64,000 bases of DNA from Streptomyces roseofulvus (GTDB lineage: Bacteria > Actinomycetota > Actinomycetes > Streptomycetales > Streptomycetaceae): assembly GCF_039534915.1 (NCBI RefSeq), contig NZ_BAAAWE010000001.1, positions 6,944,001 to 7,008,000 on the forward strand, given 5' to 3'. Made by a program: the position numbers and the translations under genes. Position 1 is the stretch's first letter; every line of letters starts with the position of its first letter. The notes under the pieces were generated by a model. The model saw nothing but the letters and a program-made list of their open reading frames with translations, had not been told where the DNA came from and did no database searches. Below, piece after piece: positions 37,212 through 61,930 of the stretch.

Positions 37212-37226
37212 AGGAAGGAACCCCCC

Positions 37227-42479: not shown

Positions 42480-42489
42480 GAAGCGCTTC
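42480..42489. promoter_or_regulatory. LacI-type operator O1 (GH31 promoter)
   Basis: Perfect palindrome GAAGCGCTTC in the context TGAAGCGCTTCGAC. It follows the predicted -10 box by one base, so a bound repressor would cover the transcription start. Confidence 0.85.
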
Positions 42490-42490
42490 G

Positions 42491-42520
42491 ACGCTGTCAT
42501 CACCTGAGAGGCGGTGTCAA
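42491..42520 (-). promoter_or_regulatory. Promoter of the GH31 gene
   Basis: On the minus strand TTGACA (42520-42515), 18 bp, CAGCGT (42496-42491), one base, then operator O1. The same spacing is found at both GH3 genes. The 311-bp interval 42341-42651 holds this promoter, O1 and O2 and no gene. Confidence 0.6.
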
Positions 42521-42599
42521 TGCCCCGGAAGGAAGAGGGTTATCGCGCCGAACGCCTTTTCCCTCGTCAGAAGTGCGGTTACAGCGCGTCCCCCTGAGT

Positions 42600-42609
42600 G
42601 AAGCGCTTC
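42600..42609. promoter_or_regulatory. LacI-type operator O2 (auxiliary, 120 bp from O1)
   Basis: Perfect GAAGCGCTTC in the context GTGAAGCGCTTCGATG. No promoter with the standard spacing is associated with it. It lies between the 3' end of the GH3 gene and the GH31 promoter and could serve as a second contact for a looped repressor. Confidence 0.75.
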
Positions 42610-42651
42610 GATGAATGCCGTGCGACCACGGCAGAGGTGTCGAGGGAGACC

Positions 42652-45495: not shown

Positions 45496-45532
45496 GAGGG
45501 ATCCCCTTGAGGTCGGGTGGCGATGCGCTTGT

Positions 45533-45542
45533 GAAGCGCTTC
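45533..45542. promoter_or_regulatory. LacI-type operator O3 (GH3 promoter)
   Basis: Perfect GAAGCGCTTC in TGAAGCGCTTCGATG, 38 bases upstream of the GH3 start and one base after its -10 box. Part of the 335-bp gene-free interval 45496-45830, which also holds O4 and two divergent promoters. Confidence 0.85.
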
Positions 45543-45543
45543 G

Positions 45544-45573
45544 ATGCTCATCAGGCCGCAGGGCGGGTGTCAA
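45544..45573 (-). promoter_or_regulatory. Promoter of the first GH3 gene
   Basis: Minus strand: TTGACA (45573-45568), 18 bp, GAGCAT (45549-45544), one base, operator O3. Base-for-base the same spacing as the GH31 and second GH3 promoters. Confidence 0.6.
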
Positions 45574-45660
45574 GGGAGCGGTGTCCTCGCATCGGTCAGG
45601 GTCGGCAAGTGTGGGCCGTGGCGCGCGTCCCGCCGCGCGGAGGAATCTTGGAAGCGACTC

Positions 45661-45689
45661 TTGTGTGCCCCTGGGTGTTCACTTAACCT
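45661..45689 (+). promoter_or_regulatory. Promoter of the importer-GH74-GH42 operon
   Basis: TTGTGT (45661-45666), 17 bp, TAACCT (45684-45689). The predicted start is near 45696, giving a leader of about 135 bases, with operator O4 on the start site. Confidence 0.5.
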
Positions 45690-45701
45690 CACTGCAACAT
45701 C

Positions 45702-45711
45702 GAAGCGCTTC
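45702..45711. promoter_or_regulatory. LacI-type operator O4 (importer operon)
   Basis: Perfect 14-bp version TCGAAGCGCTTCGA (45700-45713). It lies 12 bases past the -10 box of the importer promoter and 169 bp from O3, so one looped repressor could hold both divergent promoters. Confidence 0.85.
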
Positions 45712-45830
45712 GACTGCGCCGTGCGTCGCAGTGGTCGGATGTCCGCTTTCAGCTCAGCCAGTTCCAGTCACGACACCGCAGCCGACGGCCCACCGCCGGG
45801 TGTCCAGGTGCGCCACGAAGGGTTGACGCA

Positions 45831-47507: not shown

Positions 47508-48574
47508 TGTCCGTCACGGCCGGGAGCAGGCCCGACGGGACGCGTCCCCCCGCGGCCGCCGAAGCGCCGGGGCCCGCGGTCGCCGCCGCGGCCCCCGCGA
47601 AGGCCCCCGCGGAGGAGAGCGAGCCGCGCCGGGCCGTCGCGCTGCGCAAGGTCCCCTTCCGGGTCCGGTGGCGCCGTGACCGCGCCCTCATCCTGATGAC
47701 GTCGCCCGTCATCGTCCTGCTCCTGCTCTTCAACTACGTCCCGCTGCTCGGCAACGTCGTCGCCTTCCAGGAGTACGACCCGTACCTCTCCAGCAACGGC
47801 GTGACGGCGATCCTCCACAGCCCGTGGGTGGGTCTCGAACAGTTCTCACGCATGCTCGACGACCCGCTGTTCTGGAGCGCCACGAAGAACACCATCGTCC
47901 TGTTCGTGCTCCAGCTGGTGCTGTTCTTCCCCGTGCCCATCGTCCTCGCGCTGGTCATCAACAGCGTGATCCGGCCCCGGGTGCGGGCCGTGGCCCAGGC
48001 GATCATGTACCTGCCGCACTTCTTCTCCTGGGTCCTCGTCGTCACCGTGTTCCAGCAGATCCTCGGCGGCGCCGGCATCATCGCGCAGACCCTGGAGAAG
48101 CACGGGTGGAGCGGCTTCGACCTGATGACCGACGCGGACCTCTTCAAGTACCTGGTCACCGCGCAGGCCGTGTGGAAGGACGCCGGCTGGGGGATCATCG
48201 TCTTCCTCGCGGCGCTGTCCGCCGTCAGCACCGACCTGTACGAAGCCGCCGCCATGGACGGCGCGGGGCGCTGGCGGCGCATGTGGCACATCACGCTGCC
48301 CGCGCTGCGCCCGGTGATCGCCCTGCTCCTCGTCCTCCGGGTGGGCGACGCGCTGAGCGTCGGCTTCGAGCAGTTCCTGCTCCAGCGGTACGCGGTCGGC
48401 GCGGGGGCCAGCGAGGTCCTCGACACCTACGTGTGGAACATGGGCATCCAGAACGGCGACTTCAGCTACGCGGCCGCGGTCGGCCTGGCCAAGGGCGTCA
48501 TCGGAGTCTGCCTCGTCCTGGGCGCGAACAAGTTCGCGCACCTGCTGGGCGAACAGGGGGTGTACAAGAAATGA
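47507..48574 (+). CDS. Sugar ABC transporter permease, LplB-like
   Basis: The 355-residue permease begins at an ATG overlapping the previous stop (TGATG). A Pro/Ala-rich, basic cytoplasmic N-terminus of about 55 residues precedes six hydrophobic helices. FNYVPLLGNVVAFQEYDPY is typical of the LplB/YtcP-like branch, and the EAA loop is YEAAAMDGAGRWRRMWHITLP. It pairs with the next gene to form the channel. No ATPase is encoded in the window, so a shared ATPase such as MsiK is inferred. Confidence 0.92.
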   Translation: MSVTAGSRPDGTRPPAAAEAPGPAVAAAAPAKAPAEESEPRRAVALRKVPFRVRWRRDRALILMTSPVIVLLLLFNYVPLLGNVVAFQEYDPYLSSNGVTAILHSPWVGLEQFSRMLDDPLFWSATKNTIVLFVLQLVLFFPVPIVLALVINSVIRPRVRAVAQAIMYLPHFFSWVLVVTVFQQILGGAGIIAQTLEKHGWSGFDLMTDADLFKYLVTAQAVWKDAGWGIIVFLAALSAVSTDLYEAAAMDGAGRWRRMWHITLPALRPVIALLLVLRVGDALSVGFEQFLLQRYAVGAGASEVLDTYVWNMGIQNGDFSYAAAVGLAKGVIGVCLVLGANKFAHLLGEQGVYKK

Positions 48575-49497
48575 GCCTCGACACCCAGCTCATCCGCAGC
48601 CTCAAGGCTCCCGCCCGCCCCGTGTGGGAGGAGCCGCCGAGCAGGGCGGGACTCGCCGCCAAGGGCGGCTTCCTGGCCCTCTGCTGCCTGGGGGTCCTCG
48701 GTCCGCTGTGGATCGTGATCGTCACCAGCCTCTCCCCGAAGCCCGTGATCGACCAGGTCGGCGGCCTCGTGGTGATCCCCCAGGGCATCACCTTCGTCAA
48801 CTACACCGAACTGCTCAGCGGAGGACAGGTCAGCCGGGCGATCATGGTCTCGGTCGGCGTCACGCTCGTCGGCACGCTGTTCTCGATGACGGTGTCGGTG
48901 CTGGCGGCCTACGGCCTGTCGCGGCCCGGGAGCCTGGGCCACCGGTTCTTCCTGATGGCCATCATGGCGACCATGTTCTTCGGCGCCGGCCTCATCCCGA
49001 CGTACCTCCTGGTGCAGTCGCTGGGCCTCACCGACACCTATCTGTCGCTGATCCTGCCGAGCGCCGTCAGCGTCTTCAACATCCTCGTGCTGCGGGCCTT
49101 CTTCATGGGGATCTCACCCGAACTCACCGAGTCCGCCCGCATCGACGGGGCCGGCGAGACGCGCATCCTGCTGACCATCATCATGCCGCTCTCGCGCGCG
49201 GTGCTGGCCGTCATCTCGCTGTTCTACGCGGTCGGCTACTGGAGCGCCTGGTTCAACGCGTCCATCTACCTCAGCGACCAGCAGATGATGCCGCTGCAGA
49301 ACGTGCTCATCCAGCTGGTGCAGAAGAACACCGAAGCGCCGACCGGCCTCCAGCAGGCGGTCCGTACCGGCCAACTCTCCGCACTGGGACTGCAGATGGC
49401 CGTCATGGTCCTCGCGCTGATCCCGGTCGCGGTGGCCTCACCGTTCGTCCAGCGGCACTTCAAGAAGGGCATGCTCACGGGCGCCGTCAAGGGCTGA
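48571..49497 (+). CDS. Sugar ABC transporter permease, LplC-like
   Basis: The 308-residue permease starts with ATGA overlap on the previous stop. Six hydrophobic helices and the EAA motif ESARIDGAGETRILLTIIMPLS (in two parts) place it with the MalG/LplC half of sugar importers; VQKNTEAPTGLQQAVRTGQL is the long final periplasmic loop of the LplC type. It is translationally coupled to its partner. GH74 begins 63 bp downstream. Confidence 0.92.
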   Translation: MSLDTQLIRSLKAPARPVWEEPPSRAGLAAKGGFLALCCLGVLGPLWIVIVTSLSPKPVIDQVGGLVVIPQGITFVNYTELLSGGQVSRAIMVSVGVTLVGTLFSMTVSVLAAYGLSRPGSLGHRFFLMAIMATMFFGAGLIPTYLLVQSLGLTDTYLSLILPSAVSVFNILVLRAFFMGISPELTESARIDGAGETRILLTIIMPLSRAVLAVISLFYAVGYWSAWFNASIYLSDQQMMPLQNVLIQLVQKNTEAPTGLQQAVRTGQLSALGLQMAVMVLALIPVAVASPFVQRHFKKGMLTGAVKG

Positions 49498-49560
49498 CGC
49501 CCGCCGGCCGTGCCCCTGATCCGTACTCCCTCCCCTCCTTCTTCAGGACCGAGGTATGTC

Positions 49561-51780
49561 ATGAGCACGTTTCACCTGAGCCGGCGCTCCGTTCTCGCCG
49601 GTTCCGCTGCCGCCGCCGCGGCCGTCTCCCTGCCCGCGCTGCCGGCGCAGGCGGCCGCCGCCCCCGCGCCCGCCGCCGGGAACGGCTACCGGTGGCGCAC
49701 CGTCGCCATGGGCGGCACCGGCTTCATCAGCGGAGTGCTGTTCCACCCGTCGGTACGAGGGCTCGCCTACGCCAGGACCGACATCGGGGGCGCCTACCGC
49801 TGGGAGGACCGCACCGGCCGCTGGATCCCGCTGACCGACCACCTCGGCTGGGACGACTGGAACCTCCTCGGCGTCGAGGCCATGGCCGTCGACCCGACCC
49901 ACCGGAACCGCCTCTACCTGGCCCTCGGCACGTACACCCAGCCCTGGGCCGGCAACGGCGCCGTGCTGCGGTCCGAGGACCGCGGCGCCACCTGGCGGCG
50001 CACGGACCTCACCGTGAAGCTCGGAGCCAACGAGGACGGGCGCGGATGCGGTGAACGACTCCTCGTCGACCCGCGGAACTGCGACACGCTGTGGCTCGGC
50101 ACCCGCCACGACGGGCTGCTCAGGTCGACGGACCGAGGCGCCACCTGGCAGCCCGCGGCCTTCCCCGCCACCCCGAGCGCCGCCGGCCAGGGCATCACCC
50201 TCCTGGTCGCCGCGGGCCGCACCGTCTACGCGGGATGGGGCGACTCCGACGGCACCGCCGGCAGCCCCAACCTCTACCGCACGACCGACGGCACGACCTG
50301 GGAGCCCGTCCCCGGGCAGCCGGCCGGCACCGCCGCCCGGGTGCCGATCCGCGCCGCCTACGACCGCCTCACCCGCGAGCTGTACGTGACGTACGCCAAC
50401 GCCCCCGGTCCCAACGGCCAGTCCGACGGCAGCGTGCACAAGCTGTCGACGGCGAACGGGAAGTGGACCGAGGTCACCCCCGTGAAGCCCGGCGGGGTGA
50501 CCGGCGACGGCGGGACCGACGCCTTCGGCTACGGCGGCGTCGCCGTCGACGCCCGCCGACCGGGCACGCTCGTCGTGTCCACCAACAACCGCTGGTCCGA
50601 GGTCGACACCGTCTTCCGGTCCACCGACGGCGGCCGCACCTGGACGTCCCTGAAGGACCAGGCCGTCTTCGACGTCTCCGAGACCCCCTACCTCAAGTGG
50701 GGCGGGGACGAGCCCAAGTTCGGCTGGTGGATCCAGGCCCTCGGCCTCGACCCGTTCGACTCCCGGCACGTCGTCTACGGCACCGGCGCGACCCTGTACG
50801 GCACCCGCGACCTCCGGCGCTGGGCGCCGCAGATCCGTGGCCTGGAGGAGACCGCCATCCTCCACCTGGTCTCGCCGCCGGTCGGGGAGGCCCATCTGAT
50901 CAGCGGCAACGGCGACATCGGTGTGATGTACCACGAGTCGCTCACGGCGTCCCCCGCGCGCGGCATGGCGTCGAATCCCGTGTTCGGTTCGACCACGGGA
51001 CTCGCCCAGGCCGCGGCCCGGCCCTCGTACGTCGTGCGCACCGGCTGGAGCGGAGGCGCCAACGGCGCCTGGTCGAACGACGGCGGACGGAGCTGGTCGC
51101 CCTTCGCGTCCCAGCCGTCCGCCGCCAAGGGCGCGCCCGGCCCGATCGTCACCAACGCCGACGGCAGCGTCCTGCTGTGGTCCCTCGGGTCCTCGAACGG
51201 CACCGCCCACCCGGCGTACCGCTCGACGGACAACGGCGCCACCTGGACCGAGGCCACCTCCGTCCCTCGGGGCGCCGTCCTGGTCGCGGACCCCGTGGAC
51301 CCGGCGCTCCTCTACGCCTACGACACCACCGCCGGCACGGTCCACGCCAGCACCGACCGCGGCCTGACCTTCACCGCCGCGGCGACCGGCCTGCCCTCGG
51401 GCGACGCGCAGTTCCAGCTGGCCGCGGCACCGGGGCGCTCCGGCGACCTGTGGCTGAGCGCGAAGGAGGCCGGGCTGTACCGCTCCACCGACGGCGGCGC
51501 CACCTTCACCCGGGTCGACAGCTGCCGGTCCTCGCACACCCTGGGCTTCGGCAAGGCCGCCCCGGGCGCCGCCTACCCGGCGCTCTACATGGTCGGCGCG
51601 ACCGGGGGCCCCAACGCCGTCCACCGCTCCGACGACGAGGCGAGGACCTGGGTGCGGATCAACGACGACCAGCACCAGTGGGGCTGGATCGGCCGGGTCG
51701 TCACCGGCGATCCGCGCGTGTACGGCCGGGTCTACCTCGGCACCAACGGGCGCGGCGTGCAGTACGGGGATCCCGTCTGA
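49561..51780 (+). CDS. Secreted GH74 xyloglucanase
   Basis: The 739-residue enzyme has a Tat signal, HLSRRSVLAGSAAAAAAVSL (Arg8-Arg9), and then the two seven-bladed propellers of GH74. The first begins YRWRTVAMGGTGFISGVLFHP with the conserved Asp in YARTDIGGAYRW; LRSEDRGATWRR, LRSTDRGATWQP and YRSTDGGATFTR are Asp-box (BNR-like) blades; the second catalytic region lies near FGYGGVAVDARRPGTLVVS. GH74 enzymes cut the beta-1,4-glucan backbone of xyloglucan. No carbohydrate-binding module is attached. It is co-transcribed with the importer, and GH42 follows with a TGATG overlap. Confidence 0.94.
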   Translation: MSTFHLSRRSVLAGSAAAAAAVSLPALPAQAAAAPAPAAGNGYRWRTVAMGGTGFISGVLFHPSVRGLAYARTDIGGAYRWEDRTGRWIPLTDHLGWDDWNLLGVEAMAVDPTHRNRLYLALGTYTQPWAGNGAVLRSEDRGATWRRTDLTVKLGANEDGRGCGERLLVDPRNCDTLWLGTRHDGLLRSTDRGATWQPAAFPATPSAAGQGITLLVAAGRTVYAGWGDSDGTAGSPNLYRTTDGTTWEPVPGQPAGTAARVPIRAAYDRLTRELYVTYANAPGPNGQSDGSVHKLSTANGKWTEVTPVKPGGVTGDGGTDAFGYGGVAVDARRPGTLVVSTNNRWSEVDTVFRSTDGGRTWTSLKDQAVFDVSETPYLKWGGDEPKFGWWIQALGLDPFDSRHVVYGTGATLYGTRDLRRWAPQIRGLEETAILHLVSPPVGEAHLISGNGDIGVMYHESLTASPARGMASNPVFGSTTGLAQAAARPSYVVRTGWSGGANGAWSNDGGRSWSPFASQPSAAKGAPGPIVTNADGSVLLWSLGSSNGTAHPAYRSTDNGATWTEATSVPRGAVLVADPVDPALLYAYDTTAGTVHASTDRGLTFTAAATGLPSGDAQFQLAAAPGRSGDLWLSAKEAGLYRSTDGGATFTRVDSCRSSHTLGFGKAAPGAAYPALYMVGATGGPNAVHRSDDEARTWVRINDDQHQWGWIGRVVTGDPRVYGRVYLGTNGRGVQYGDPV

Positions 51781-53747
51781 TGCCCGGCCTGAGCGACGCG
51801 ACCCGCGGCCGCCTCCTCTTCGGCGGCGACTACAACCCGGAGCAGTGGCCGGAGGAGACCTGGCACGAGGACGTCCGGCTGATGAAGGCGGCCGGGGTCA
51901 ACTCGGTGACCCTCGGCGTCTTCTCCTGGTCGACGCTGGAACCGACGCCGGGAGCAAGGGAGTTCGGCTGGCTCGACACGGTGATGGACCTGATGCACGA
52001 CCACGGCATCGGCGTCGTCCTCGCCACCCCGACCGCCTCGCCCCCGCCCTGGATGGGCCGGCTGCACCCGGACACCCTGCCCGTCACCGAGGACGGCCGC
52101 ACCGAGTGGTGGGGCGGCCGGCAGCACTTCTCGCACTCCAGCGCCACCTACCGGCGCTACGCCGCCGCCGTCACCGAGGACCTCGCCGCCCGCTACGCCG
52201 GCCACCCGGCGCTGACGATGTGGCACATCAACAACGAGTACTGCACCTTCGACTACGGCGACGAGGCCGCGGCGGCCTTCCGCCGCTGGCTGCGCGCGAG
52301 GTACGGCACCCTCGACGCCCTCAACGACGCCTGGGGCACCGCCTTCTGGAGCCAGGGGTACGACTCCTGGGACGGCGTCCTGCCACCCCGCCTGGCCCAC
52401 TACATGCGCAACCCCACCCAGGTCCTCGACTTCAGGCGCTTCACCTCCGACATGCTCCTGGAGTGCTTCGTCGCCGAGCGGGACATCGTCCGCCGCCACA
52501 CCCCGGACATCCCGGTCACCAGCAACTTCATGCCGCTGTGGACGGGCCAGGACGGCTGGCGCTGGGCCGAGGAGGAGGACGTGGTCTCCGTCGACCTCTA
52601 CCCGGATCCGCGCGACCCGCTGGGCGCCCAGAGCGGCGCCCTCGTCCAGGACCTGACCCGCTCCCAGGCGCGCGGGCCGTGGATGCTCATGGAGCAGGCC
52701 GCCGGGCCCGTCAACTGGCGGGGCGTGAACCACCCCAAGCCCCGCGGGCTCAACCGGCTCTGGTCCCTGCAGGCCGTGGCCCGGGGCGCCGACGCCGTCT
52801 GCTACTTCCAGTGGCGGCAGTCCCGGCAGGGCGCGGAGAAGTTCCACTCCGGCATGGTCAGCCATGCCGGGGAGGAGGGCCGGACGTACCGGGAGGTCAG
52901 GCAGCTCGGCGCGGAGCTGGAGCGGATCGCCGCCGGGACGGCCGGCCGGACCGTCACCGCCGACGTCGCGATCCTGCACGACTGGGACGCGTGGTGGGCC
53001 GGATGCCAGGACGGCCGCCTGTCCGGCCGGGTGGAGTACGCGGACGTCCTGCGCGCCTGGCACCGAGCCCTCTGGCAGGCGCACCTCACCACCGACTTCG
53101 CCCACCCCGAGCACGACCTCACGCCGTACTCCGTCGTCGTCGTGCCGCAGCTCTACTCCCTCACCGACACGGCGATCGAAGGGCTCGTGGCCCACGTCCG
53201 CAGGGGCGGCACCCTCGTCTGCGGCTTCCAGACCGGCGTCGCCGACGAGGACGACCGGGTCCGCGCCGGCGGCATGGACCACCGGCTGCGCGAGCTGTTC
53301 GGCATCCGCACCCTGCACGAGTGGTGGCCGCTGGACGCGGGGGAGACCGTCACCTGCGAGGGCTTCACGGCGTCCCTGTGGTCGGAGGAGCTGGAGGCCG
53401 ACGGCTCCGCCGACGAGACCGTGCCGTACAAGGGCGGAGAACTCGACGGACTGCCCGCCGTCCTGCGCAAGGGCCGGGCCTGGTACGTCTCCACCCTGCC
53501 CGAGCCGGAGGCGCTGAGCGACCTCCTGGCCGGGATCGCCGCCGCGGCGGGCGTCCGGCCGGTGCTCGACGGCCTTCCCGAGCAGGTCGAGGCCGTCCGT
53601 CGCGGCGAGGCGCTCTTCGTGCTCAACCACGGTCGCGAGCCGGTGACCGTCGACGTTCCCGGCAGCCACCACGATCTCCTCACGGGGGCGCCGGTCACCG
53701 ACCGGATCACCCTGGGCCGCTACGGCGCGGCGGTGCTCCGGCCGTGA
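51780..53747 (+). CDS. GH42 beta-galactosidase
   Basis: The 655-residue cytoplasmic enzyme begins LLFGGDYNPEQWP, the classic GH42 opening. The acid/base is Glu153 in WHINNEYC and the nucleophile Glu305 in LMEQAAGPVNW. The trimerisation (Glyco_hydro_42M) domain follows from about residue 395 (VVVVPQLYSLTDTAI, GGTLVCGFQTGVADEDD), then a small C-terminal beta domain. It would remove the beta-1,2-galactose that caps xylose in xyloglucan side chains. Start ATG overlaps the GH74 stop. A strong terminator ends the operon. Confidence 0.94.
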   Translation: MPGLSDATRGRLLFGGDYNPEQWPEETWHEDVRLMKAAGVNSVTLGVFSWSTLEPTPGAREFGWLDTVMDLMHDHGIGVVLATPTASPPPWMGRLHPDTLPVTEDGRTEWWGGRQHFSHSSATYRRYAAAVTEDLAARYAGHPALTMWHINNEYCTFDYGDEAAAAFRRWLRARYGTLDALNDAWGTAFWSQGYDSWDGVLPPRLAHYMRNPTQVLDFRRFTSDMLLECFVAERDIVRRHTPDIPVTSNFMPLWTGQDGWRWAEEEDVVSVDLYPDPRDPLGAQSGALVQDLTRSQARGPWMLMEQAAGPVNWRGVNHPKPRGLNRLWSLQAVARGADAVCYFQWRQSRQGAEKFHSGMVSHAGEEGRTYREVRQLGAELERIAAGTAGRTVTADVAILHDWDAWWAGCQDGRLSGRVEYADVLRAWHRALWQAHLTTDFAHPEHDLTPYSVVVVPQLYSLTDTAIEGLVAHVRRGGTLVCGFQTGVADEDDRVRAGGMDHRLRELFGIRTLHEWWPLDAGETVTCEGFTASLWSEELEADGSADETVPYKGGELDGLPAVLRKGRAWYVSTLPEPEALSDLLAGIAAAAGVRPVLDGLPEQVEAVRRGEALFVLNHGREPVTVDVPGSHHDLLTGAPVTDRITLGRYGAAVLRP

Positions 53748-53769
53748 CGCCGTGACGGCCGGAACCGCT

Positions 53770-53810
53770 CGGCGAGCCGTACCCCGACCGGCGCGGGGTA
53801 CGGCTCGCCG
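53770..53810. terminator. Bidirectional terminator between GH42 and the LacI regulator
   Basis: A perfect 17-bp stem (53770-53786 with 53794-53810) and a 7-base loop lie between two convergent genes. Confidence 0.85.
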
Positions 53811-53819
53811 GTCCCTGCG

Positions 53820-54824
53820 TCAGGGGGCCGTCCCGGTGCTCGCCCGCACCGTCAACTCGGGGGCGATCAGCGAGACTTCGTCGGTGGCGCGGCCCTCGAT
53901 CTTGGCGACCAGGCGCTCCACCGCCTGCCGGCCCATCTCCTGCGCCGGGATGGAGACCGACGTCAGCCGCACCGAGGCCTGGACGGCCACCTGCTCCGGG
54001 CAGATCGCGACCACCGACACGTCCTCGGGGACGGCGCGGCCCTGCCGGCGCAGCAGGGCGAGCAGCGGCTCGACCGCCTGCTCGTTCTGCACGACGAACC
54101 CGGAGGTGCCCGGGCGCTCGTCGAGGATGCGGGTGAGGACGGCGGCGATCGCGTCGTAGCCACCGCCGCACGGCCGGTGCAGCACCCGGAGGTCCAACTC
54201 CCGCGCCCGGGCGCGGAGCCCGTCGAGGGTGCGCTCGGCGAAGCCGGTGTGCCGCTCGTAGACCGCGGGGGCCTCGCCGATGACGGCGATGTCGCGGTGG
54301 CCGAGCTTCGCCAGGTGGTCCACGCACAGCGCGCCGGTCGCCCGGAAGTCGAGGTCGACGCAGGTCAGTCCCGAGGTGTCGGCGGGCAGCCCGATCAGCA
54401 CGGACGGCTGGTCGGTGCCGCGCAGCAGCGGCAGCCGCTCGTCGTCGAGCTCGACGTCCATGAGGATCATCGCGTCGGCGAGCCCGCTGCCGGTGACGCG
54501 GCGGACGGCTTCGGGGCCCTCCTCACCGGTCAGCAGCAGGACGTCGTACCCGTGCGTCCGGGCCGTCGTGGCGACCGCGATGGCGATCTCCATCATCACC
54601 GGCACGTACATGTCGGTGCGCAGCGGGACCATCAGCGCGATGATGTTCGACCTGCTGCTGGCCAGTGCCCGCGCGCCCGCGTTCGGGTGGTACCCCAGCT
54701 CGCGGATGCTCTGCTCGACCTGCAGCCGGGTGGCCGCGGAGATGGGCCGCTTGCCGCTGAGGACATAGCTCACCGTGCTCGCCGACACTCCGGCGTGCCG
54801 GGCGACCTCGGCGAGGGTTACCAT
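53820..54824 (-). CDS. LacI-family transcriptional repressor, likely regulator of the locus
   Basis: The 334-residue regulator begins MVTLAEVARHAGVSASTVSY, the LacI HTH, followed by the hinge helix PNAGARALASSRSN. The sensor domain has SNIIALMVPLRTDMYVPVM, CVDLDFRATGALCVDHLAKLGH cut short here, and SVVAICPEQVAVQASVRLTSV. It is in the middle of the nine GAAGCGCTTC operators, two of which bracket its own promoter, so autoregulation and control of the surrounding sugar genes are inferred. The inducer is probably a xyloglucan-derived oligosaccharide. The RBS is GGGAGAGCTGG. Confidence 0.92.
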   Translation of the reverse strand: MVTLAEVARHAGVSASTVSYVLSGKRPISAATRLQVEQSIRELGYHPNAGARALASSRSNIIALMVPLRTDMYVPVMMEIAIAVATTARTHGYDVLLLTGEEGPEAVRRVTGSGLADAMILMDVELDDERLPLLRGTDQPSVLIGLPADTSGLTCVDLDFRATGALCVDHLAKLGHRDIAVIGEAPAVYERHTGFAERTLDGLRARARELDLRVLHRPCGGGYDAIAAVLTRILDERPGTSGFVVQNEQAVEPLLALLRRQGRAVPEDVSVVAICPEQVAVQASVRLTSVSIPAQEMGRQAVERLVAKIEGRATDEVSLIAPELTVRASTGTAP

Positions 54825-54843
54825 CCAGCTCTCCCAGCCTCAT

Positions 54844-54853
54844 GAAGCGCTTC
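54844..54853. promoter_or_regulatory. LacI-type operator O5 (downstream operator of lacI)
   Basis: Perfect GAAGCGCTTC in ATGAAGCGCTTCGATC, 20 bases before the lacI ATG and downstream of its promoter, where a repressor would block elongation or overlap the ribosome-binding region. Confidence 0.85.
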
Positions 54854-54893
54854 GATCATGTGAGCGTACCGCTCCTGCCTGCCATGTACGGCG

Positions 54894-54922
54894 ACCTTAT
54901 CTCCGGCGTCACGCGTTGTCCA
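54894..54922 (-). promoter_or_regulatory. Promoter of the LacI gene
   Basis: Minus strand: TGGACA (54922-54917), 17 bp, TAAGGT (54899-54894), a good TANNNT -10. Operators O5 and O6 lie on either side, 88 bp apart. Confidence 0.55.
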
Positions 54923-54931
54923 TCCTTCATC

Positions 54932-54941
54932 GAAGCGCTTC
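54932..54941. promoter_or_regulatory. LacI-type operator O6 (upstream operator of lacI)
   Basis: 14-bp version TCGAAGCGCTTCGA (54930-54943), 9 bases upstream of the lacI -35 box and 20 bases after the stop of the GH43 gene. Confidence 0.85.
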
Positions 54942-54963
54942 GACGGGGCGAGGAGGGAGGCGT

Positions 54964-56463
54964 TCAGCCGTCGAGGGGCTCGTAGTCGAACCAGTCGAAG
55001 CGGACGGTGCCGTCCGCGGCGTACAGGCCGATGACCCGGCCCGTGAAGCCGCCGGCGACCTCGGTCGACAGATAGCGCCCGTCGAGTGCGGCGAGCTCCG
55101 TGAAGGTGCCGTCGGGCCGCTCGAAGCCGAGGGTGACGACGTCGGGTCCGGTGCGGGGTCCGTGCGGCGTCGCCGATTCCGTGATCGTGACGGCGAGGAC
55201 CACCGGCCCGGCGTGCACCGTCCGTGCCGCCACGACCGTGCGCAGGGCGCCGACGCGCGCGACCGCGCGTACCTCCGTGCCGGACACCTCGACCGCGTAG
55301 TGGTGCCGCTCGTCGAGCCGGACCGCGAGCCCGCCGTCTCCCTCCGCGGCGTCGACCAGCGTGCGCGCCCGGCACGCGAGATGCTGCTGGCGCCGGCCGG
55401 TGAACACCACGTCGGGCTCGTCCAGGGAGCGTCCCCGCGCGCGGAGGGTCAGCCAGCCGGGGCGCTCCTCGGTGGTGCAGTGCTCGGCCGGCCGGTCGCG
55501 CAGCGAGATCCAGGACGGGCGCAGTGCCGGGAGGTCGAAGTCGTCCCGGCGCTCCTCGACGGGGCCGGGGGAGAGCGGCCACGGGAGCTCGGGCAGGTCC
55601 AGGTCCACCTCGCCGACGACCGGCCATCCGTCCACCCAGGTCACCGGAGCCAGGAAGGTCTCCCGGCCGAGCACGTGCCAGCCCGGCGTGCCGCCGCCGG
55701 GCCGGACGCCGAGCAGCACCATCCACCAGGAGCCGTCGGGGCCCTGCACCAGGTCCGCGTGCCCGGTGTTCTGGACGGGGTGGTCGGTGCCGCGGTGGGT
55801 GAGGACCGGATTGGCCGGGCACGGCTCGAACGGGCCGGAGGGCGTACGGCCCCGGGCGATCGAGACGCCGTGGCCGCGCTCGGTGCCGCCCTCGGCGATC
55901 AGGAGGTACCAGTACGCGCCGATCCGGTACAGGTGCGGCGCCTCCGGGGCCTTCGCGCCGGGCCCGCCGGACCAGAGCCGGTGCGGTGTGCCGGACGTCC
56001 GCCCCGTGGACGGGTCGAGACGGACCTGCGAGACCCCGGCGACCGTGCACCAGCAGGTGCCGTCCTCGTCCCACGCCAGGTCCGGATCGATGCCGGGGAC
56101 GCCCGGCGCCCGGACGGGGTCCGACCACGGTCCGGCGGGGTCGGTGGCCGTGACGATCAGGTTGCCGCCGCCCTCGCTGCAGTTGGTGACGACCAACCAG
56201 AAGCGGCCGTCGTGGTGGCGCAGGGTGGGGGCGTAGATCCCGCCGGAGGACGGCATGTCCACCGGCAGGCGCAGTTGCTCCGGCCGGTCCAGGACGTTGC
56301 CGATCTGCGTCCAGTGCACCAGGTCGCGGCTGTGGAAGAGGGGAACGCCGGGGAAGTACTCGAAGCTGGAGCAGGCCAGGTAGTAGTCGTCGCCGACGCG
56401 GCAGACGCTGGGGTCGGGGTGGAAGCCGGGGATCACGGGGTTGGCGGGACGCAGGGGTGGCAC
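54964..56463 (-). CDS. GH43 arabinofuranosidase/beta-xylosidase
   Basis: The 499-residue cytoplasmic enzyme has a GTG start at 56463 behind AGAGGA. The five-bladed propeller carries the GH43 acids: Asp in PGFHPDPSV (base), Asp in VPGIDPDLAWDED (modulator) and Glu in KAPEAPHLYR (acid). A C-terminal beta-sandwich (about 300-499, DDFDLPALRPSWISLRDRP to FDWFDYEPLDG) matches the DUF1349/XynB-like accessory domain of beta-xylosidases. It removes arabinose or xylose from oligosaccharides. It starts 60 bp after the GH36-like remnant, whose operator-bearing promoter probably drives both. Confidence 0.9.
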   Translation of the reverse strand: MPPLRPANPVIPGFHPDPSVCRVGDDYYLACSSFEYFPGVPLFHSRDLVHWTQIGNVLDRPEQLRLPVDMPSSGGIYAPTLRHHDGRFWLVVTNCSEGGGNLIVTATDPAGPWSDPVRAPGVPGIDPDLAWDEDGTCWCTVAGVSQVRLDPSTGRTSGTPHRLWSGGPGAKAPEAPHLYRIGAYWYLLIAEGGTERGHGVSIARGRTPSGPFEPCPANPVLTHRGTDHPVQNTGHADLVQGPDGSWWMVLLGVRPGGGTPGWHVLGRETFLAPVTWVDGWPVVGEVDLDLPELPWPLSPGPVEERRDDFDLPALRPSWISLRDRPAEHCTTEERPGWLTLRARGRSLDEPDVVFTGRRQQHLACRARTLVDAAEGDGGLAVRLDERHHYAVEVSGTEVRAVARVGALRTVVAARTVHAGPVVLAVTITESATPHGPRTGPDVVTLGFERPDGTFTELAALDGRYLSTEVAGGFTGRVIGLYAADGTVRFDWFDYEPLDG

Positions 56464-56523
56464 CCGAGGGGTCCTCTCGTCGATGCGTGAGCGAGTCGCG
56501 GTGGGGGTGGGGCCGGGGGCGGC

Positions 56524-57078
56524 TCAGGGAGCGCCGGGGCCCGTGGGAGTGACGCGGAGCAGGAAGGCGGACGGCGCGGTGGGCAGGGTCAGACCCAGCT
56601 CGGCGGTGTCCGGACGCCGGACGGAACCGGGCCGAGCGGCCGACGGATGGAGCACCTCGATCCGGGCGGGAGTGTCCCGCAGGTGGGGAAGGCGGAGCGT
56701 CGCCGCGGCGTCGGCTCCCGGGCGGCGCCAGACGGTGAGGTAGGTGGTTGGCGGGCGTCCGCAGGGCCAGGGCGATCCAGGGGGCGCCCCAGGCGGGAAG
56801 CCCGAGGGGCCTGAACGGTACGGCCTCCGGCAGGTCGGCGCCGATGGTCTTGTACACGGCCATCGCCTCGTGGACCAGGGCGCGGGCCGCCCCGTCGAGT
56901 TCGAGGAGGCGGCCGGAGAGCCGCGCCCGGTGCGCCGGTCCGTCAGGCCGCCCATCGGCAGGTGCCCGCAACTGGACCAGGTGCCCTGCCCGTTCAGGGA
57001 GAAGCCCGCCTTGCCGTGCCCGTACGTCACCCGAAGGGCCTCGTGTCCCCACTGGAAGGTCCCTGGTTCCTTGGTCAT
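56524..57078 (-). pseudogene. Remnant of a GH36-like (melibiase) gene with two frame changes
   Basis: From ATG 57078 (RBS AAAGGG) the frame reads EPGTFQWGHEALRVTYGHGKAGFSLNGQGTWSS in parts, up to LPMGGLTDR. Near 56925-56945 the sensible reading shifts to another frame (SGRLLELDGAARALVHEAMA, VYKTIGADLPEAVPFRPLGL, APWIALALRTP), and near 56745-56765 it returns to the first (TTYLTVWRRPGADAAATLRL to LTLPTAPSAFLLRVTP). The joined product is about 185 residues, against more than 650 in GH36 enzymes, so most of the catalytic barrel is missing. Family assignment is by resemblance to the C-terminal part of actinobacterial melibiases and is tentative. Ribosome site, promoter and operators are intact. 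Confidence 0.55.
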
Positions 57079-57164
57079 GGCGGCCCTTTCGGGGTCGGTG
57101 CCGGGCGGGTTCCTCGGGTGGGGGTGCCGGGTCGTGCCCGGCAGGCCGGGCGGCGACGGCCGTC

Positions 57165-57174
57165 GAAGCGCTTC
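57165..57174. promoter_or_regulatory. LacI-type operator O7 (GH36-remnant/GH43 operon)
   Basis: Perfect core GAAGCGCTTC in TCGAAGCGCTTCAC, 12 bases downstream of the -10 box. It is the only one of the nine in which the GA after the core is lost. Confidence 0.8.
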
Positions 57175-57186
57175 ACTCGCAGCCGT

Positions 57187-57216
57187 AAGGTAACGGACGA
57201 ATTTCACGAGAGACAA
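57187..57216 (-). promoter_or_regulatory. Promoter of the GH36-remnant/GH43 operon
   Basis: Minus strand: TTGTCT (57216-57211), 18 bp, TACCTT (57192-57187). Operators O7 and O8 lie 67 bp apart on either side. Confidence 0.55.
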
Positions 57217-57231
57217 GGGCTGCGTGCAGGC

Positions 57232-57241
57232 GAAGCGCTTC
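57232..57241. promoter_or_regulatory. LacI-type operator O8 (upstream operator of the GH43 operon)
   Basis: Perfect core in GCGAAGCGCTTCGACT, 15 bases upstream of the -35 box and 44 bases after the stop of the AraC gene. Confidence 0.8.
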
Positions 57242-57285
57242 GACTCCGGGACTCCGAAGAACGACCCGGAGCGTGCCCGGTGGGG

Positions 57286-58146
57286 TCAGAGCCCGCGTCC
57301 GTGCCGGAACCGCGCCGGGGTGGTTCCGCACGCGTCGGTGAAGACCCGGTAGAAGCGGCTGACCGAGCCGAAGCCGGCGGCCGCGGCCACCTGGCTCGCG
57401 GGAAGGTCGGTGGTCACCAGCAGCCGGCGCGCCTCGGCGAGCCGGTACAGCTTCACGTAGTCGCCGATCGTGGTCCGCACGACCTTGCGGAACTGTGTCA
57501 TGGCGTAGGTCGGGTGGACGTGCGCCGCCGCGGCGACGTCAGCGACGGAGATCGGCTCCCGGAAGTGGTCCGCGATGTACCGCGCCATGGACACCGCCTG
57601 GCGCAGGGCCGGATCGTCACCGGGGTGGCGCCGCACCGGATCGCCGACCGTGGCGAGCGCCAGGCGCCGGACGCGCGCCTGGATCTCCAGCATCGCGATG
57701 CGGTGCAGTTCGTCGTCGCCCGCGGCCAGATCTGCGGCCCACTGGGTGAACCTCGCCGGATCGCTCGCGTCGGCACGGTCCGGGGACGAGACCACCGGCA
57801 CGCCCGAGAGCACGCGGCCGACGAACGGCTGGGGCAGTCCCCAGGCGAGGAACCGGTCGAAGGGCACGTGCAGCCAGTGGACGCGCGTCGCCCTGTTCGC
57901 CACCAGCTGATGCGGGATCGCGGCCCAGAACACGGCGAGGCCACCCACCGCGACGTCGAGGAGCTCGCCGCCGTGGAGATAGAGCATCGGCCCGCCGCCG
58001 GCCACGAAGTTGATCTCCAGGTCGTCGTGCCGGTGCGCCGCCGCCATCAGCGTCGGACGACCGGACCAGCCGCGCAGGGACGACGGTTCGTCGACCAGAG
58101 CACCCTGAGGATCCAAGAAGTTCTCTCTTCGAAGCAGCGCAGACAT
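57286..58146 (-). CDS. AraC-family regulator with N-terminal cupin
   Basis: The 286-residue regulator starts MSALLRRENFLDPQG. A cupin-like sensor (about 40-130, HRHDDLEINFVAGGGPML, VFWAAIPHQLV) is followed by two HTH units: ISVADVAAAAHVHPTYAMTQ and LPASQVAAAAGFGSVSRFYR. The start at 58146 has GAGGA upstream; a longer open frame (to 58221) is not conserved. It is divergent from the Gfo/Idh/MocA gene, with 105 bp between. It probably senses a sugar and controls that gene. Confidence 0.88.
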   Translation of the reverse strand: MSALLRRENFLDPQGALVDEPSSLRGWSGRPTLMAAAHRHDDLEINFVAGGGPMLYLHGGELLDVAVGGLAVFWAAIPHQLVANRATRVHWLHVPFDRFLAWGLPQPFVGRVLSGVPVVSSPDRADASDPARFTQWAADLAAGDDELHRIAMLEIQARVRRLALATVGDPVRRHPGDDPALRQAVSMARYIADHFREPISVADVAAAAHVHPTYAMTQFRKVVRTTIGDYVKLYRLAEARRLLVTTDLPASQVAAAAGFGSVSRFYRVFTDACGTTPARFRHGRGL

Positions 58147-58251
58147 CCCGTGTCCTCGGACCCTACCGTCAGGGAGCAGTGCCGGAGCCCGCGCCGTCGC
58201 GCGACCGGCATCCGCCCGCATCCACGCCCCCGTCCCTGATGGAGATCTCGC

Positions 58252-59448
58252 GTGTTCTCACTCGGCATCGTCGGAGCCGGCCAGTTCGCCGGCTCGTTCG
58301 CCAACCTCTGGCGCCTGCACCCGGACGTCGGTGACATCAAGGTCACCGACCTGCTCCCGGAGCGCGCCGAGACACTCGTCGCCGAGCACGACCTCGCCGG
58401 CACCCTCCCCTCGTTCGACGCCATGCTCGACTCGGACCTCGACGCCGTCGCGCTCTTCACCCAGCGCTGGACCCACGGGCCGCTCGCCGTACGGGCGTTG
58501 CGCGCGGGCAAGGACGTCTACAGCGCCGTCCCGATGGCCGTGACCGAGGCCGAGATCGCGGACATCATCGCGGCGGTCGAGGAGACCGGCCGGATCTACA
58601 TGATGGGCGAGACGAGCTACTACCACCCGGCGACCGTCTACGCCCGCGAGCGGATCGCCGCGGGCGCGTTCGGCCGGATCTTCTACGCGGAGGGCGACTA
58701 CGTCCACGACATGGACTGGGGCTTCTACGACGCGTACAGGTACAGCGGCGGCGCGAACTGGAAGGCCACCGCCAGCTACCCGCCGCTGCTCTACCCCACG
58801 CACTCGATCGGCGGAGTCCTCGGCGCCTGGCGGACGCACGCCGTGAGCGTCTCGGCGATCGGCGTCCCGGACGAGCGCGGCGACGGCGTCTTCGACCGCG
58901 AGATCAGCCAGTTCGACAACGACTTCTCCAACGCCACCGCGCTGTTCGAGGTCGCGGGCGGCGGCAGCTTCCGCACGAACGAGTTCCGCAGGGTCGGATA
59001 CATCGGCAAGGAGTCCCGCTTCCGCTACTTCGGCACGGAGGCGGTCCTCGAACAACTCGGCTCGGTCAGCCTGTGGCAGGACAAGAAGGGCGAGCGCGAC
59101 ATCACCGCGCACCTCCACGCCGCACCCACCCTCACCCCGGACGACCCGGCGCTCTCCCACGTCGCCCCGGAACTGCGCGACGCCTTCGCCTCCCGCACCG
59201 CCCCTGTCCACGACCGCTCCCGGCTCCCGCGTGAGTTCGCGCACGCGCCCAACGGCCACGAGGGCAGTCACCACTTCCTCGCCGACGACTTCGCCGTCGC
59301 GGTCACGACGCGGACGCCTCCTCCGCTGCACGCGTGGACCGCCGCCCGCTACACCCTCCCCGGCATCATCGCCCACCGGTCCGCCCTCCGAGACGGCGAA
59401 CGCCTTCCCATCCCCGACCACGGCGACGGCCCCGGCGTCACGCCGTAG
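58252..59448 (+). CDS. Gfo/Idh/MocA-family oxidoreductase
   Basis: The 398-residue NAD(P)-dependent enzyme opens MFSLGIVGAGQFAGSFANLW (GTG start 58252, RBS GGAGAT). The Rossmann motif is GIVGAGQFAG; the family Lys-Pro motif is replaced by DVYSAVPMAVTEAE, where the usual EKP reads SAVP. GETSYYHPATVYARERI and the YGLYPTHSIGG-like LLYPTHSIGGVLG provide the substrate-site residues. Such enzymes oxidise, reduce or hydrolyse sugars. Loss of the catalytic EKP Lys suggests either an unusual mechanism or a different substrate class. Control by the divergent AraC is inferred. Confidence 0.85.
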   Translation: MFSLGIVGAGQFAGSFANLWRLHPDVGDIKVTDLLPERAETLVAEHDLAGTLPSFDAMLDSDLDAVALFTQRWTHGPLAVRALRAGKDVYSAVPMAVTEAEIADIIAAVEETGRIYMMGETSYYHPATVYARERIAAGAFGRIFYAEGDYVHDMDWGFYDAYRYSGGANWKATASYPPLLYPTHSIGGVLGAWRTHAVSVSAIGVPDERGDGVFDREISQFDNDFSNATALFEVAGGGSFRTNEFRRVGYIGKESRFRYFGTEAVLEQLGSVSLWQDKKGERDITAHLHAAPTLTPDDPALSHVAPELRDAFASRTAPVHDRSRLPREFAHAPNGHEGSHHFLADDFAVAVTTRTPPPLHAWTAARYTLPGIIAHRSALRDGERLPIPDHGDGPGVTP

Positions 59449-59457
59449 CGGCACGCC

Positions 59458-59685
59458 TCACCGGCCCGGGGGAGGGCCTGCGCGCACCAGATCGTCTCCG
59501 TCGAAGACCGCGCAGATCGGGGACGCGCCGCCGATCAGCCGCAGCCTGATCGGCGGCGCGCCGTACCGGACGGCGTCGGCGATCGGCACGTTGACGACCG
59601 GTTCGCTGTCGAAGGACGCCTCCTCCAGACCCCACGCGTCCACGCGGTCGACGGCGGCGCGTGGCCGGACGGGGTTGCTGATCAC
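59458..59685 (-). pseudogene. Fragment of an RsbW/SpoIIE-type histidine-kinase-like ATPase domain
   Basis: A 75-codon frame reads DAWGLEEASFDSEPVVNVPI, then ADAVRYGAPPIRLRLIGGAS and PICAVFDGDD. This closely parallels the Streptomyces pattern LDAWGLEE-(T)ELVVSELVTNAIRYG-PPIRLRLI-LICEVSD of anti-sigma-factor kinases and SpoIIE phosphatases. The N-box Asn (TNA in active relatives) is ADA here, and both ends of the domain are missing, so it cannot be functional. It fills most of the 243-bp gap between the oxidoreductase and AraC genes. Confidence 0.55.
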
Positions 59686-59691
59686 CGGGGT

Positions 59692-60492
59692 CTACCGGGC
59701 CGCCTCGTCGCGCGGGGCGGGACCGGCGCCGCGGATGCCGCGAGGCGACGCCCCCAGCTCACGGCGGCAGGCCTTGTTGAAGGCCTGGAGGTCGGGGATG
59801 CCGACCGAGGCGGCGACGGCGGGGATGGAGAGCGTGGTGGCCCGAAGGAAGTGGCGGGCCCGTTCCATCCGGCGGGCCCGGATGTAGCCGACGACGGTCT
59901 CCCCGGTGGCGGCGCGGAAGAGCCGGGTCAGGTGGTTGTGGGAGACGCCGGCCGCCCTCGCGATCTCCGGCACCGTCAGGGACCCGGCCAGCCTCGCCTC
60001 GATCAGGGCCGTCGCGGCCGCCACCGCCGGATGGACGGCCGGGGCGCTCCGCTCCCGGGGCGGGGCGAGCCGGGCGATCCGCCACAGCGCGGCCCACACC
60101 TCGGCGGTGGCCCGGGCCGGGGTGCGCGGCCAGGCGGCGAGCGCCTGCCGCAACTGGGCCGAGAGCAGATCGAGTTCCGGCCCGGCGGGCTGGATCACCG
60201 GAATTCCCTGGGGTGTTCCCGCCGCACCCAGGCGGAGGTGGGCGTAGAGGTGCTCGGAGCGGCCCCGGTAGCGGTAGCGCACCTCGGTCCCGGGCGGGAC
60301 GAGGCTGACCCGCCCGGGCCGGATCTCGTGCTCGGTTCCGTCGACCGTCAGGTCCGCGTCGTAGCCGTACAGATGGAGCTGCCACAGGTCCGGCAGCGAG
60401 AACACGTCCACGTGGCCGGCCGGACCGTGCACGCCGATACCGACGGCGGCGAGCGCGGGAGGGTCGTCGAGAGGGGCGAGGACCGTCTGCAT
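59692..60492 (-). CDS. AraC-family transcriptional regulator
   Basis: This 266-residue regulator begins MQTVLAPLDDPPALAAVGIG. An AraC-type cupin (about 20-95, LWQLHLYGYDADLTVDG, RVSLVPPGTEVRYRYRG) precedes the two-HTH DNA-binding region: LTVPEIARAAGVSHNHLTRL and LSIPAVAASVGIPDLQAFNK. No clear Shine-Dalgarno precedes the ATG at 60492; an upstream in-frame GTG is possible. It is divergent from the PhyH gene with 145 bp between and probably controls it. Confidence 0.88.
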   Translation of the reverse strand: MQTVLAPLDDPPALAAVGIGVHGPAGHVDVFSLPDLWQLHLYGYDADLTVDGTEHEIRPGRVSLVPPGTEVRYRYRGRSEHLYAHLRLGAAGTPQGIPVIQPAGPELDLLSAQLRQALAAWPRTPARATAEVWAALWRIARLAPPRERSAPAVHPAVAAATALIEARLAGSLTVPEIARAAGVSHNHLTRLFRAATGETVVGYIRARRMERARHFLRATTLSIPAVAASVGIPDLQAFNKACRRELGASPRGIRGAGPAPRDEAAR

Positions 60493-60624
60493 GGGCACGT
60501 GTTCTACCACGGCGGACCACGCAGGGGCCCGGGGCGCGGTCGTCGGAGCGCGCGGCGGACGGGCGGGTGAGAATCGACCAGCGGAGGGTGAACGCGGCCC
60601 ACGCGGCACGGGTCCGGCCGGACC

Positions 60625-60630
60625 TAGCGT
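60625..60630 (+). promoter_or_regulatory. -10 box of a predicted leaderless PhyH transcript
   Basis: TAGCGT ends 7 bases before the ATG at 60638, the same distance as at 1832-1837 and 7301-7306. Confidence 0.4.
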
Positions 60631-60637
60631 GGCCGCC

Positions 60638-61453
60638 ATGGAGAACAGCCAAGAACTGCTGAACTCGGTGCGGATGGCGCGCTTCGTGGCGCGCGGGTCA
60701 CTGCAGCTGGACGCGGTGGTGCCGGCGGAGATGAACGCCGAGGGCCTGGCGGTCCTGGCGGCCGGGGTGCCGCCCGTGCCGTACGGGACGCCGCTGTCCG
60801 AGGCGTACGCGAAGGGCTCCTTCGTCCGCAGGCTGCTCGAACTGCCGCAGGTGGCAGGGGCCCTGCGCAGCCTCGTCGGCCCCGAGCCGTGGGTGGACCA
60901 CCACTTCGTGCACATCCGCGAGCCGCACGGCGGCGAAGCTCAGGGACTGCACGGGGACGCCATCATCGACGTCCGGCCGGACGCCTTCGACGTCCAGCTG
61001 ATGTACTACCCGCAGGCCGTGACGCTGGAGATGGGCGGCACGCTCAGTGTGCCGGGCAGCCATCTGCGGCGGACCAACGAATCGGACACCGGCCGCTACC
61101 AGAACCTCCGGGGCCAGGACAGGCTGGTCTGCCCGGCCGGCACGGTGGTGCTTCTGCACCACGGAATCTGGCACGGCGGCCGGCGCAACGACAGCGACGT
61201 CCGCCGCTACATGTTCAAGATCCGCTTCAATCCCCGGGTCCGTCAACGGCGCCTGTGGGACACCTCGGACCTGCACGACCCGCGGGTGACCGCGGAGCTG
61301 GACGTGATGTTCCCGTGGTACGAGGGAGCGACCGGCCGGCTGGAGCGGTACAACCGCATCCTGCTGTGGCGGGAGCTGACCGGCGACGGCGACTTCGACG
61401 TCGACCGCTGGGTGACCAGGGTCTCCAACCGCCCGAAGGAGACGGTGGAATGA
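60638..61453 (+). CDS. Phytanoyl-CoA dioxygenase (PhyH) family protein
   Basis: The 271-residue non-haem Fe(II)/2-oxoglutarate enzyme has iron ligands His105 and Asp107 in GLHGDAII and a distal His in VVLLHHGIWHGG (His179 the best candidate, with His174/175 nearby). An Arg for 2-oxoglutarate lies in RRYMFKIRFNP (about 189-196). FDVQLMYYPQAVTLEMGGTL and VPGSHLRR are typical core strands. Substrate unknown; bacterial PhyH enzymes hydroxylate diverse small molecules. It ends in an ATGA overlap with the next gene and is divergent from an AraC regulator. Confidence 0.85.
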   Translation: MENSQELLNSVRMARFVARGSLQLDAVVPAEMNAEGLAVLAAGVPPVPYGTPLSEAYAKGSFVRRLLELPQVAGALRSLVGPEPWVDHHFVHIREPHGGEAQGLHGDAIIDVRPDAFDVQLMYYPQAVTLEMGGTLSVPGSHLRRTNESDTGRYQNLRGQDRLVCPAGTVVLLHHGIWHGGRRNDSDVRRYMFKIRFNPRVRQRRLWDTSDLHDPRVTAELDVMFPWYEGATGRLERYNRILLWRELTGDGDFDVDRWVTRVSNRPKETVE

Positions 61454-61797
61454 CGCCCGAAGCGACCCCGCCCGCCTCGGCGGCCGCCCGCGACGCCTCC
61501 GCCGCCCCGGTGCCGCGGCAGCAGGTGCTCGTGCTGTACCTGGCCGGCTCGGCGCTGGACTCCCCGGTCGTGGGCTGGTCGCGCTACGACGGCACCGGCC
61601 GCACCTCGCCCACCACGGGCGACGGTGACGAGCCGCCGTACGAGTCGGGGGTGGCCGCGCTGCGGGACGGCTGGCGGCTGTTCCAGGCCGCGCAACTGAT
61701 CCCGCCGTACCCGGGGCACGAGTACGACGTCTCCTTCCTCAAGCACGAGTTCTTCTTCGAGCGGATCGTCGACGTGCGGGAGGGCACCGGGGCCTGA
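61450..61797 (+). CDS. Small uncharacterised protein coupled to the PhyH gene
   Basis: The ATG overlaps the PhyH stop (ATGA). The 115-residue product has a disordered Ala/Pro-rich start, then an ordered core: QQVLVLYLAGSALDSPVVGW, YESGVAALRDGWRLFQAAQL, IPPYPGHEYDVSFLKHEFFF. No signal or membrane segment is present. It probably works with the dioxygenase, but no family was recognised. Confidence 0.65.
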   Translation: MTPEATPPASAAARDASAAPVPRQQVLVLYLAGSALDSPVVGWSRYDGTGRTSPTTGDGDEPPYESGVAALRDGWRLFQAAQLIPPYPGHEYDVSFLKHEFFFERIVDVREGTGA

Positions 61798-61889
61798 CGT
61801 CGAACCGCTTGACCCGGTGCACGCGGGCGAAGGGGCCATCCAGAGGAGTCAGGGGAGGGGTGGGGGCCGGGGTTTCTCCGCGCCTCTCA

Positions 61890-61919
61890 TTGACAGGCAA
61901 GGGAGACGAATGGGACCGT
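61890..61919 (+). promoter_or_regulatory. Promoter of the second GH3 gene
   Basis: TTGACA (61890-61895), 18 bp, GACCGT (61914-61919), one base, operator O9: identical spacing to the GH31 and first GH3 promoters. Confidence 0.6.
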
Positions 61920-61920
61920 C

Positions 61921-61930
61921 GAAGCGCTTC
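61921..61930. promoter_or_regulatory. LacI-type operator O9 (second GH3 promoter)
   Basis: 14-bp version TCGAAGCGCTTCGA (61919-61932), 43 bases upstream of the GH3 start codon. Confidence 0.85.

Follow-up and report, generated by a model that had tools for sequence, protein, structure and literature searches.

A GH36 pseudogene ahead of a full-length GH43 gene

The minus-strand open reading frame (ORF) at 57078-56524 of the analysed window, a 64,000-nucleotide stretch of the Streptomyces roseofulvus genome, is a dead remnant (pseudogene) of a GH36 gene: an intact, syntenic ortholog is present in a relative, G262, and the window copy has inactivating lesions. About ten other species have a broken copy of this gene at the same position, with differing lesions. 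We consider it highly probable that the remnant is the decayed former first gene of a GH36-GH43 unit and that such losses have been repeated in the genus.

The ORF comprises 184 codons, in line with the total of about 185 given in a first-pass annotation of this DNA. Homology searches showed that GH36-type proteins of the genus match the ends of the ORF in its own frame and its middle part in another frame. In DNA alignment with the G262 gene, the remnant retained bases 1-46, 553-660 and 1741-2133, in order, corresponding to codons 1-15, 185-220 and 581-711 of a 711-codon GH36 (melibiase-type) gene. The first piece, on the minus strand like the other two, runs from the start codon onward (57078-57033; 91.3% to G262) as far as a scar at 57032-57031, where about 506 bp have been lost. 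As two bases of unclear origin are present at this scar, the net loss is 504 bp and the deletion is in frame. The second piece (57030-56923; 92.6% to G262) ends at a scar at 56922-56921, where about 1080 bp have been lost, including both catalytic motifs; the net loss of 1078 bp puts this deletion out of frame. The third piece (56920-56524; 86.5% to G262, with one insertion) continues to the native stop. An extra base at remnant base 331 (window 56748, within a two-base run) restores the frame.

The net loss relative to G262 is 1581 of 2136 bp, with codons ~16-184 and 221-580 absent, which leaves no barrel and neither catalytic motif, as the first-pass annotation had stated for the barrel. The remnant matched no Pfam family at E<=0.1. 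The intact G262 protein, used as a query, matched three stretches in the S. roseofulvus genome (E 5e-29, 1e-19 and 9e-17), and the homology of the remnant to GH36 is far beyond chance. The DNA matches of many relatives break at query positions 441/444 and 554, corresponding to about window 56921 and 57033. Repeat-mediated recombination was rejected as the origin of these two deletions, as no repeat was visible and the flanks shared only 0-2 bp at both.

The GH36-like reading departs from its frame at 56922/56921 and resumes it at 56748, so the two frame changes that had been placed near 56925-56945 and 56745-56765 were both found; the first is a deletion scar and not a point frameshift. The account of a gene with two frameshifts was incorrect in that the lesions are two deletions and one extra base, the in-frame deletion of ~506 bp at 57033 having been overlooked. 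A pair of assembly errors had been offered as an alternative origin for the frame changes, and more generally the remnant might be an intact gene disguised by assembly or base-calling errors. A single assembly of the species was examined, and a misread might account for the extra base, although the run in which it lies is just two identical bases long. Base-calling errors cannot explain the absence of ~1.58 kb, with a clean scar at each of two sites, a point already made for the missing barrel with respect to homopolymer errors. The genome is also one contig and 100% complete, and comparable scars were found in other genomes. We therefore regard errors in an intact gene as exceedingly unlikely.

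A different possibility is that the 184-codon frame is translated as a new short gene with a new role, such as translational coupling into GH43. The start and stop are kept, the extra base restores the net frame, and the remnant in G148 likewise reads to about the native stop, in 107 codons. Against this, six of the eight start-bearing remnants stop earlier or run into GH43, homology searches of relatives found none that matched across the whole ORF, and ~58 of the 184 codons lie in a frame other than that of the original gene. The openness of the 184-codon frame means little, because another ORF, of 744 aa, opens at 57052 within the remnant and carries on through the whole of GH43. We judge a new short gene to be very improbable. 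Restoration of the frame as a selected trait was also rejected, since only two of eight start-bearing remnants terminate at the native stop or close to it.

Intact ortholog in G262 and identity of the lost enzyme

G262 was the nearest relative found, with 85% identity over the longest DNA match. Its intact GH36 gene (711 aa, L076:7092-9227) occupies the orthologous place, so that the comparison with related strains proposed in the first-pass annotation did yield a full-length gene. The nine neighbours are identical in kind and order to those of the window: BNR-repeat protein, GH42, LacI, GH43, [GH36], AraC, oxidoreductase, AraC, PhyH and GH3. The ortholog matched the Pfam Melibiase family (PF02065) at 103.2 bits, above the cut-off of 27, and had a GH36N domain as well, which bears out the GH36 origin assigned earlier. 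Its KLDHN (458) and CASGGMRWD (507) align with KWDMN and CSGGGGRFD of 2xn0, and we take them to be the catalytic Asp motifs of the barrel.

The loss had been described as that of an alpha-galactosidase step. Loss of a GH36 gene stands, whereas the alpha-galactosidase identity is unproved, because the only NCBIfam match of the G262 protein (E<=0.001) was the BAD_1528 beta-L-arabinopyranosidase, with a score of 545.4 bits that missed the equivalog cut-off of 1100. Any substrate named for the enzyme is a prediction. An extract of PMC10688797 places BAD_1528 in GH36 subfamily I-b and describes a predicted subfamily I-b member of B. pseudocatenulatum that adjoins LacI and ABC transporter genes. The S. 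roseofulvus genome had no other match to the G262 GH36 protein at E<=0.001. As it encodes a GH27 protein with a ricin-type lectin domain (window 37203-38873) and one further Melibiase-family match (genome position 5183532), alpha-galactosidase or beta-L-arabinopyranosidase capacity may remain.

Promoter, operators and gene cluster

The first-pass annotation had also stated that the start codon, ribosome-binding site, promoter and two operators are kept, and all were present, the promoter as a promoter-like pair. Upstream of the ATG is an operator at 57230-57243 (core GAAGCGCTTC at 57232-57241), followed on the minus strand by a promoter-like pair, TTGTCT (57216-57211) and TTACCT (57193-57188), 17 bp apart, and by a downstream operator with the same core (57174-57165), such that the promoter-like pair sits between the two operators. 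A ribosome-binding site, GAAAGGG (57090-57084, minus strand), is located 5 bp ahead of the ATG. Past the remnant's stop by 60 bp is the GTG start of a full-length GH43 gene (56463-54964, minus strand) with GH43 and GH43_C2 domains, and next to it is a LacI-family regulator gene (54824-53820, minus strand), the presumed reader of the operators. It is a good inference that the remnant would be transcribed as the leader of the GH43 message. An AraC-family gene lies just upstream of the remnant (57286-58221); its best NCBIfam match was MelR, at 140.7 bits (cut-off 253).

Two further operator cores were found at 54844-54853 and 54932-54941. In all, the window has nine such cores (42480-61930), compared with 0.03 expected by shuffling, and eight of them form four pairs. 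Exact operator 14-mers occur three times in the genome, all inside the window; when one mismatch was allowed there were 13 places in the genome versus four for a reversed control. Judging by the nine cores and the confinement of exact 14-mers to the window, the operator seems particular to this cluster. The palindromic sites gather around the regulator's own genes, as is expected of LacI-type operator pairs, and the nine cores likely mark a regulon around the LacI gene, with the adjacent LacI protein as the predicted controller of the operators. The cluster also includes genes for GH62, GH27, GDSL, GH31 and GH3 proteins, a solute-binding protein and GH42, and is a putative locus for plant side chains, probably those of xyloglucan.

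Loss of GH36 across the genus

A search anchored on GH43, with matches at E<=1e-200 in 392 sampled genomes of the genus (one genome per species), identified 86 places in 83 genomes, none with an internal stop; the census favours full-length GH43 because of this cut-off, which would hide broken GH43 genes not adjoining an intact GH36. The upstream DNA of all 86 places was examined, and was shortened by contig ends in some (the least, 732 bp in G201, is outside the loci considered below). The GH36 partner occurred in two clades of the GH43 tree, of 34 and 12 loci. The 86-row tree leaves out the GH36 loci L033, L036, L037 and L091 (no GH43 match in the stretch, or a distant GH36) and represents G376 by L158 in place of L103. 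Three places with GH36 or its pieces further upstream in another arrangement (G258b, G267 and G168b) were counted as having none and are outside the 46 loci.

By protein search, the 46 loci, whose membership was taken from the GH43 tree, comprised 21 with an intact GH36, 11 with a remnant (G000, which is S. roseofulvus, G148, G233, G305, G183, G217, G236, G177, G170, G288 and G091) and 14 with none. An intact GH36 was thus missing in 25 of 46 loci, and GH43 was full length in every one. At related loci, GH36 is a gene of 709-713 codons, a remnant with other breaks, or absent; a conserved small gene in one frame, which the earlier annotation had named as evidence against decay, was not seen among them. 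The breakpoints differ among species, with the missing stretches being ~192-2005 in G148, 812-1571 in G170, 598-949 and 1640-1811 in G233, and 98-557 and 628-1904 in G177. The G236 remnant has a frame change only, which could be a sequencing error. In G183, a stretch of ~200 bp inside the remnant (L086 ~8202-8403) has no counterpart in the gene. L152 (G168:C15) holds two fragments (residues 296-401 and 461-708) of a second GH36 in a different placement, lying upstream of a further GH43.

DNA alignment detected a short GH36 coding trace in six of the 14 loci with none (G367, G250, G376, G331, G347 and G165), of merely some 20-35 coding bases in G331 and G165, and no such trace in the other eight. 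The operator is also found directly ahead of GH43 outside the two clades (G395, G171, G062, G179, G195, G140 and G332). Given that arrangement and the eight loci lacking a trace, some loci with none may never have had GH36.

Losses-only parsimony on the GH43 tree gave 13 + 4, or about 17, losses, and accounting for the 11 remnants takes 11 changes, of which starred branches force six or more; these counts rest on a quick one-protein tree with 22 weak forks. The remnants were as scattered on the tree as shuffled labels. Among the 21 intact loci, GH36 and GH43 distances were correlated (Mantel r 0.875, with 0 of 2000 permutations as high). Together, these data indicate that GH36 has been lost repeatedly and GH43 retained.

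Leaders of loci with and without GH36

The leaders of 23 of the 86 places were aligned, eight before an intact GH36 and 15 from the 25 loci lacking one. They were picked because an exact core of the operator lay close by, and the presence of the downstream operator in them is therefore by choice. All 23 had CTTG(T/A) and, ~17-18 bp on, a TA-containing box, between the operator sites. Both operators and the promoter-like pair were present in all 15 aligned loci without intact GH36, in which the upstream core was exact or had one or two changes; among the 23 leaders it was inexact in G376, G225 (one change) and G284 (two changes). Removal of GH36 from directly behind the promoter therefore leaves the promoter and operators ahead of GH43.

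Ten of the 25 loci without intact GH36 are outside this alignment. Four of them have a GH42-like gene in between (G046, G183, G233 and G165), in five the operator is further off (G347, G170, G177, G236 and G387), and no operator was found at the G331 locus. In some species, the lost GH36 was internal to a longer unit. A GH42-like gene also lies between the operators and GH36 in L077, L078, L080, L081 and others, with GH36 being first elsewhere; the GH42-like naming rests on the N-terminus and, in L077, on a 40% tblastn match.

Asymmetry, redundancy and selection

We also took a reverse census, from close GH36 genes (>=77% identical to that of G262; at most two candidates per genome scored). 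There were 24 such genes in 23 genomes, of which 21 adjoin a full-length GH43. The close copy in G244 ends with its contig, and a second copy in G049 has no GH43 in the stretch examined, its other locus having both. In G177, a second copy (L164, G177:C25, 4736-7166) keeps its GH36 and has a GH43 stump of residues 3-81, and the other locus (L101) has a full-length GH43 and a GH36 remnant, which is a reciprocal loss between two GH36-GH43 copies. All 22 judgeable genomes with a close GH36 had a full-length close GH43 somewhere. No judgeable genome keeps a close GH36 without any close GH43, and the reverse holds at 25 of 46 loci.

Redundancy was rejected as the cause of loss, as a further GH36 elsewhere was found in 18 of 25 losing and 16 of 21 keeping genomes (at most two candidates per genome scored; G236 not judgeable), with no clear association. 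The further GH36 genes of losing genomes were 56-67% identical, apart from 84% in G177 and a partial gene in G131; the one in the keeping genome G168 was partial. At GH36 codon positions 1 and 2, there were 14 of 21 changes on the S. roseofulvus branch versus two of nine on that of G262 (Fisher p 0.046), a weak test of relaxed selection (p 0.11 and 0.23 with looser filters). GH43 showed a similar tilt (17 of 33 versus four of 16; p 0.12, or 0.053 and 0.024 with looser filters) and a longer branch on the GH43 tree in S. roseofulvus than in G262 (0.09 versus 0.031), so that the GH43 of S. roseofulvus may be relaxing too.

These observations are best explained if GH36 formerly headed a transcription unit with GH43, the two presumably being co-transcribed from a promoter flanked by two LacI-type operators. 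An in-frame and an out-of-frame internal deletion have since taken ~1.58 kb including the barrel and catalytic motifs, and with one added base the fragment can still be read from its original start codon to its original stop but makes no enzyme. Selection on GH43 and on the shared promoter and operators would bound what can be lost, which may be why the fragment stays as a 0.56-kb GH43 leader. Like losses, with other breakpoints, have occurred on many occasions across the genus; the suspected cause is that the GH36 activity fell out of use.

Loss might instead have been driven, beyond disuse, by active selection against a costly GH36 enzyme, through its product or a side activity. The 25 of 46 loci without intact GH36, set beside a GH43 that is full length in 46 of 46, are what such selection would produce; however, simple disuse with a deletion bias predicts the same pattern, and redundancy does not separate losers from keepers. 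We consider active selection unlikely. We would further speculate, with considerable doubt, that the GH36 place is a recurrent weak spot, at which selection removes GH36 and holds the promoter, operators and GH43 as an adaptation to the plant side chains met. If so, a two-enzyme unit would have become a one-enzyme unit repeatedly in many Streptomyces lineages.

Comparison with known systems

The system offers a replicated natural experiment, in which one gene of a regulated pair has been lost ~17 times among 46 loci and its partner kept. The repetition makes testable which sugar the lost enzyme acted on, whether loss was neutral or favoured, and how far the promoter and downstream gene bound deletions. 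It is also a warning against annotating the 184-codon frame as a gene. The titles and abstract openings of the literature matches listed contained no description of a GH36-GH43 operon or its repeated loss.

Relative to known GH36 glycosidases, the window copy lacks the barrel and the catalytic residues. The G262 ortholog resembles the GH36 alpha-galactosidases (PDB 2xn0 and 4fnq) in its Melibiase domain and in motifs that align to 2xn0. Its nearest model is BAD_1528 of Bifidobacterium adolescentis, yet at about half of the required bits.

The decay of GH36 is pseudogene formation of a known kind, unusually repeated. An extract of PMC2720952 reports parallel pseudogene formation in the arginine decarboxylase genes of Chlamydia trachomatis, where, as for GH36 here, the same gene was inactivated independently in related lineages. 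Going by the paper's title, the Chlamydia case involved nonsense and missense changes within one species. By contrast, the GH36 losses extend across species of a free-living genus, are mostly large internal deletions, and are confined between a promoter and a downstream gene that are both retained.
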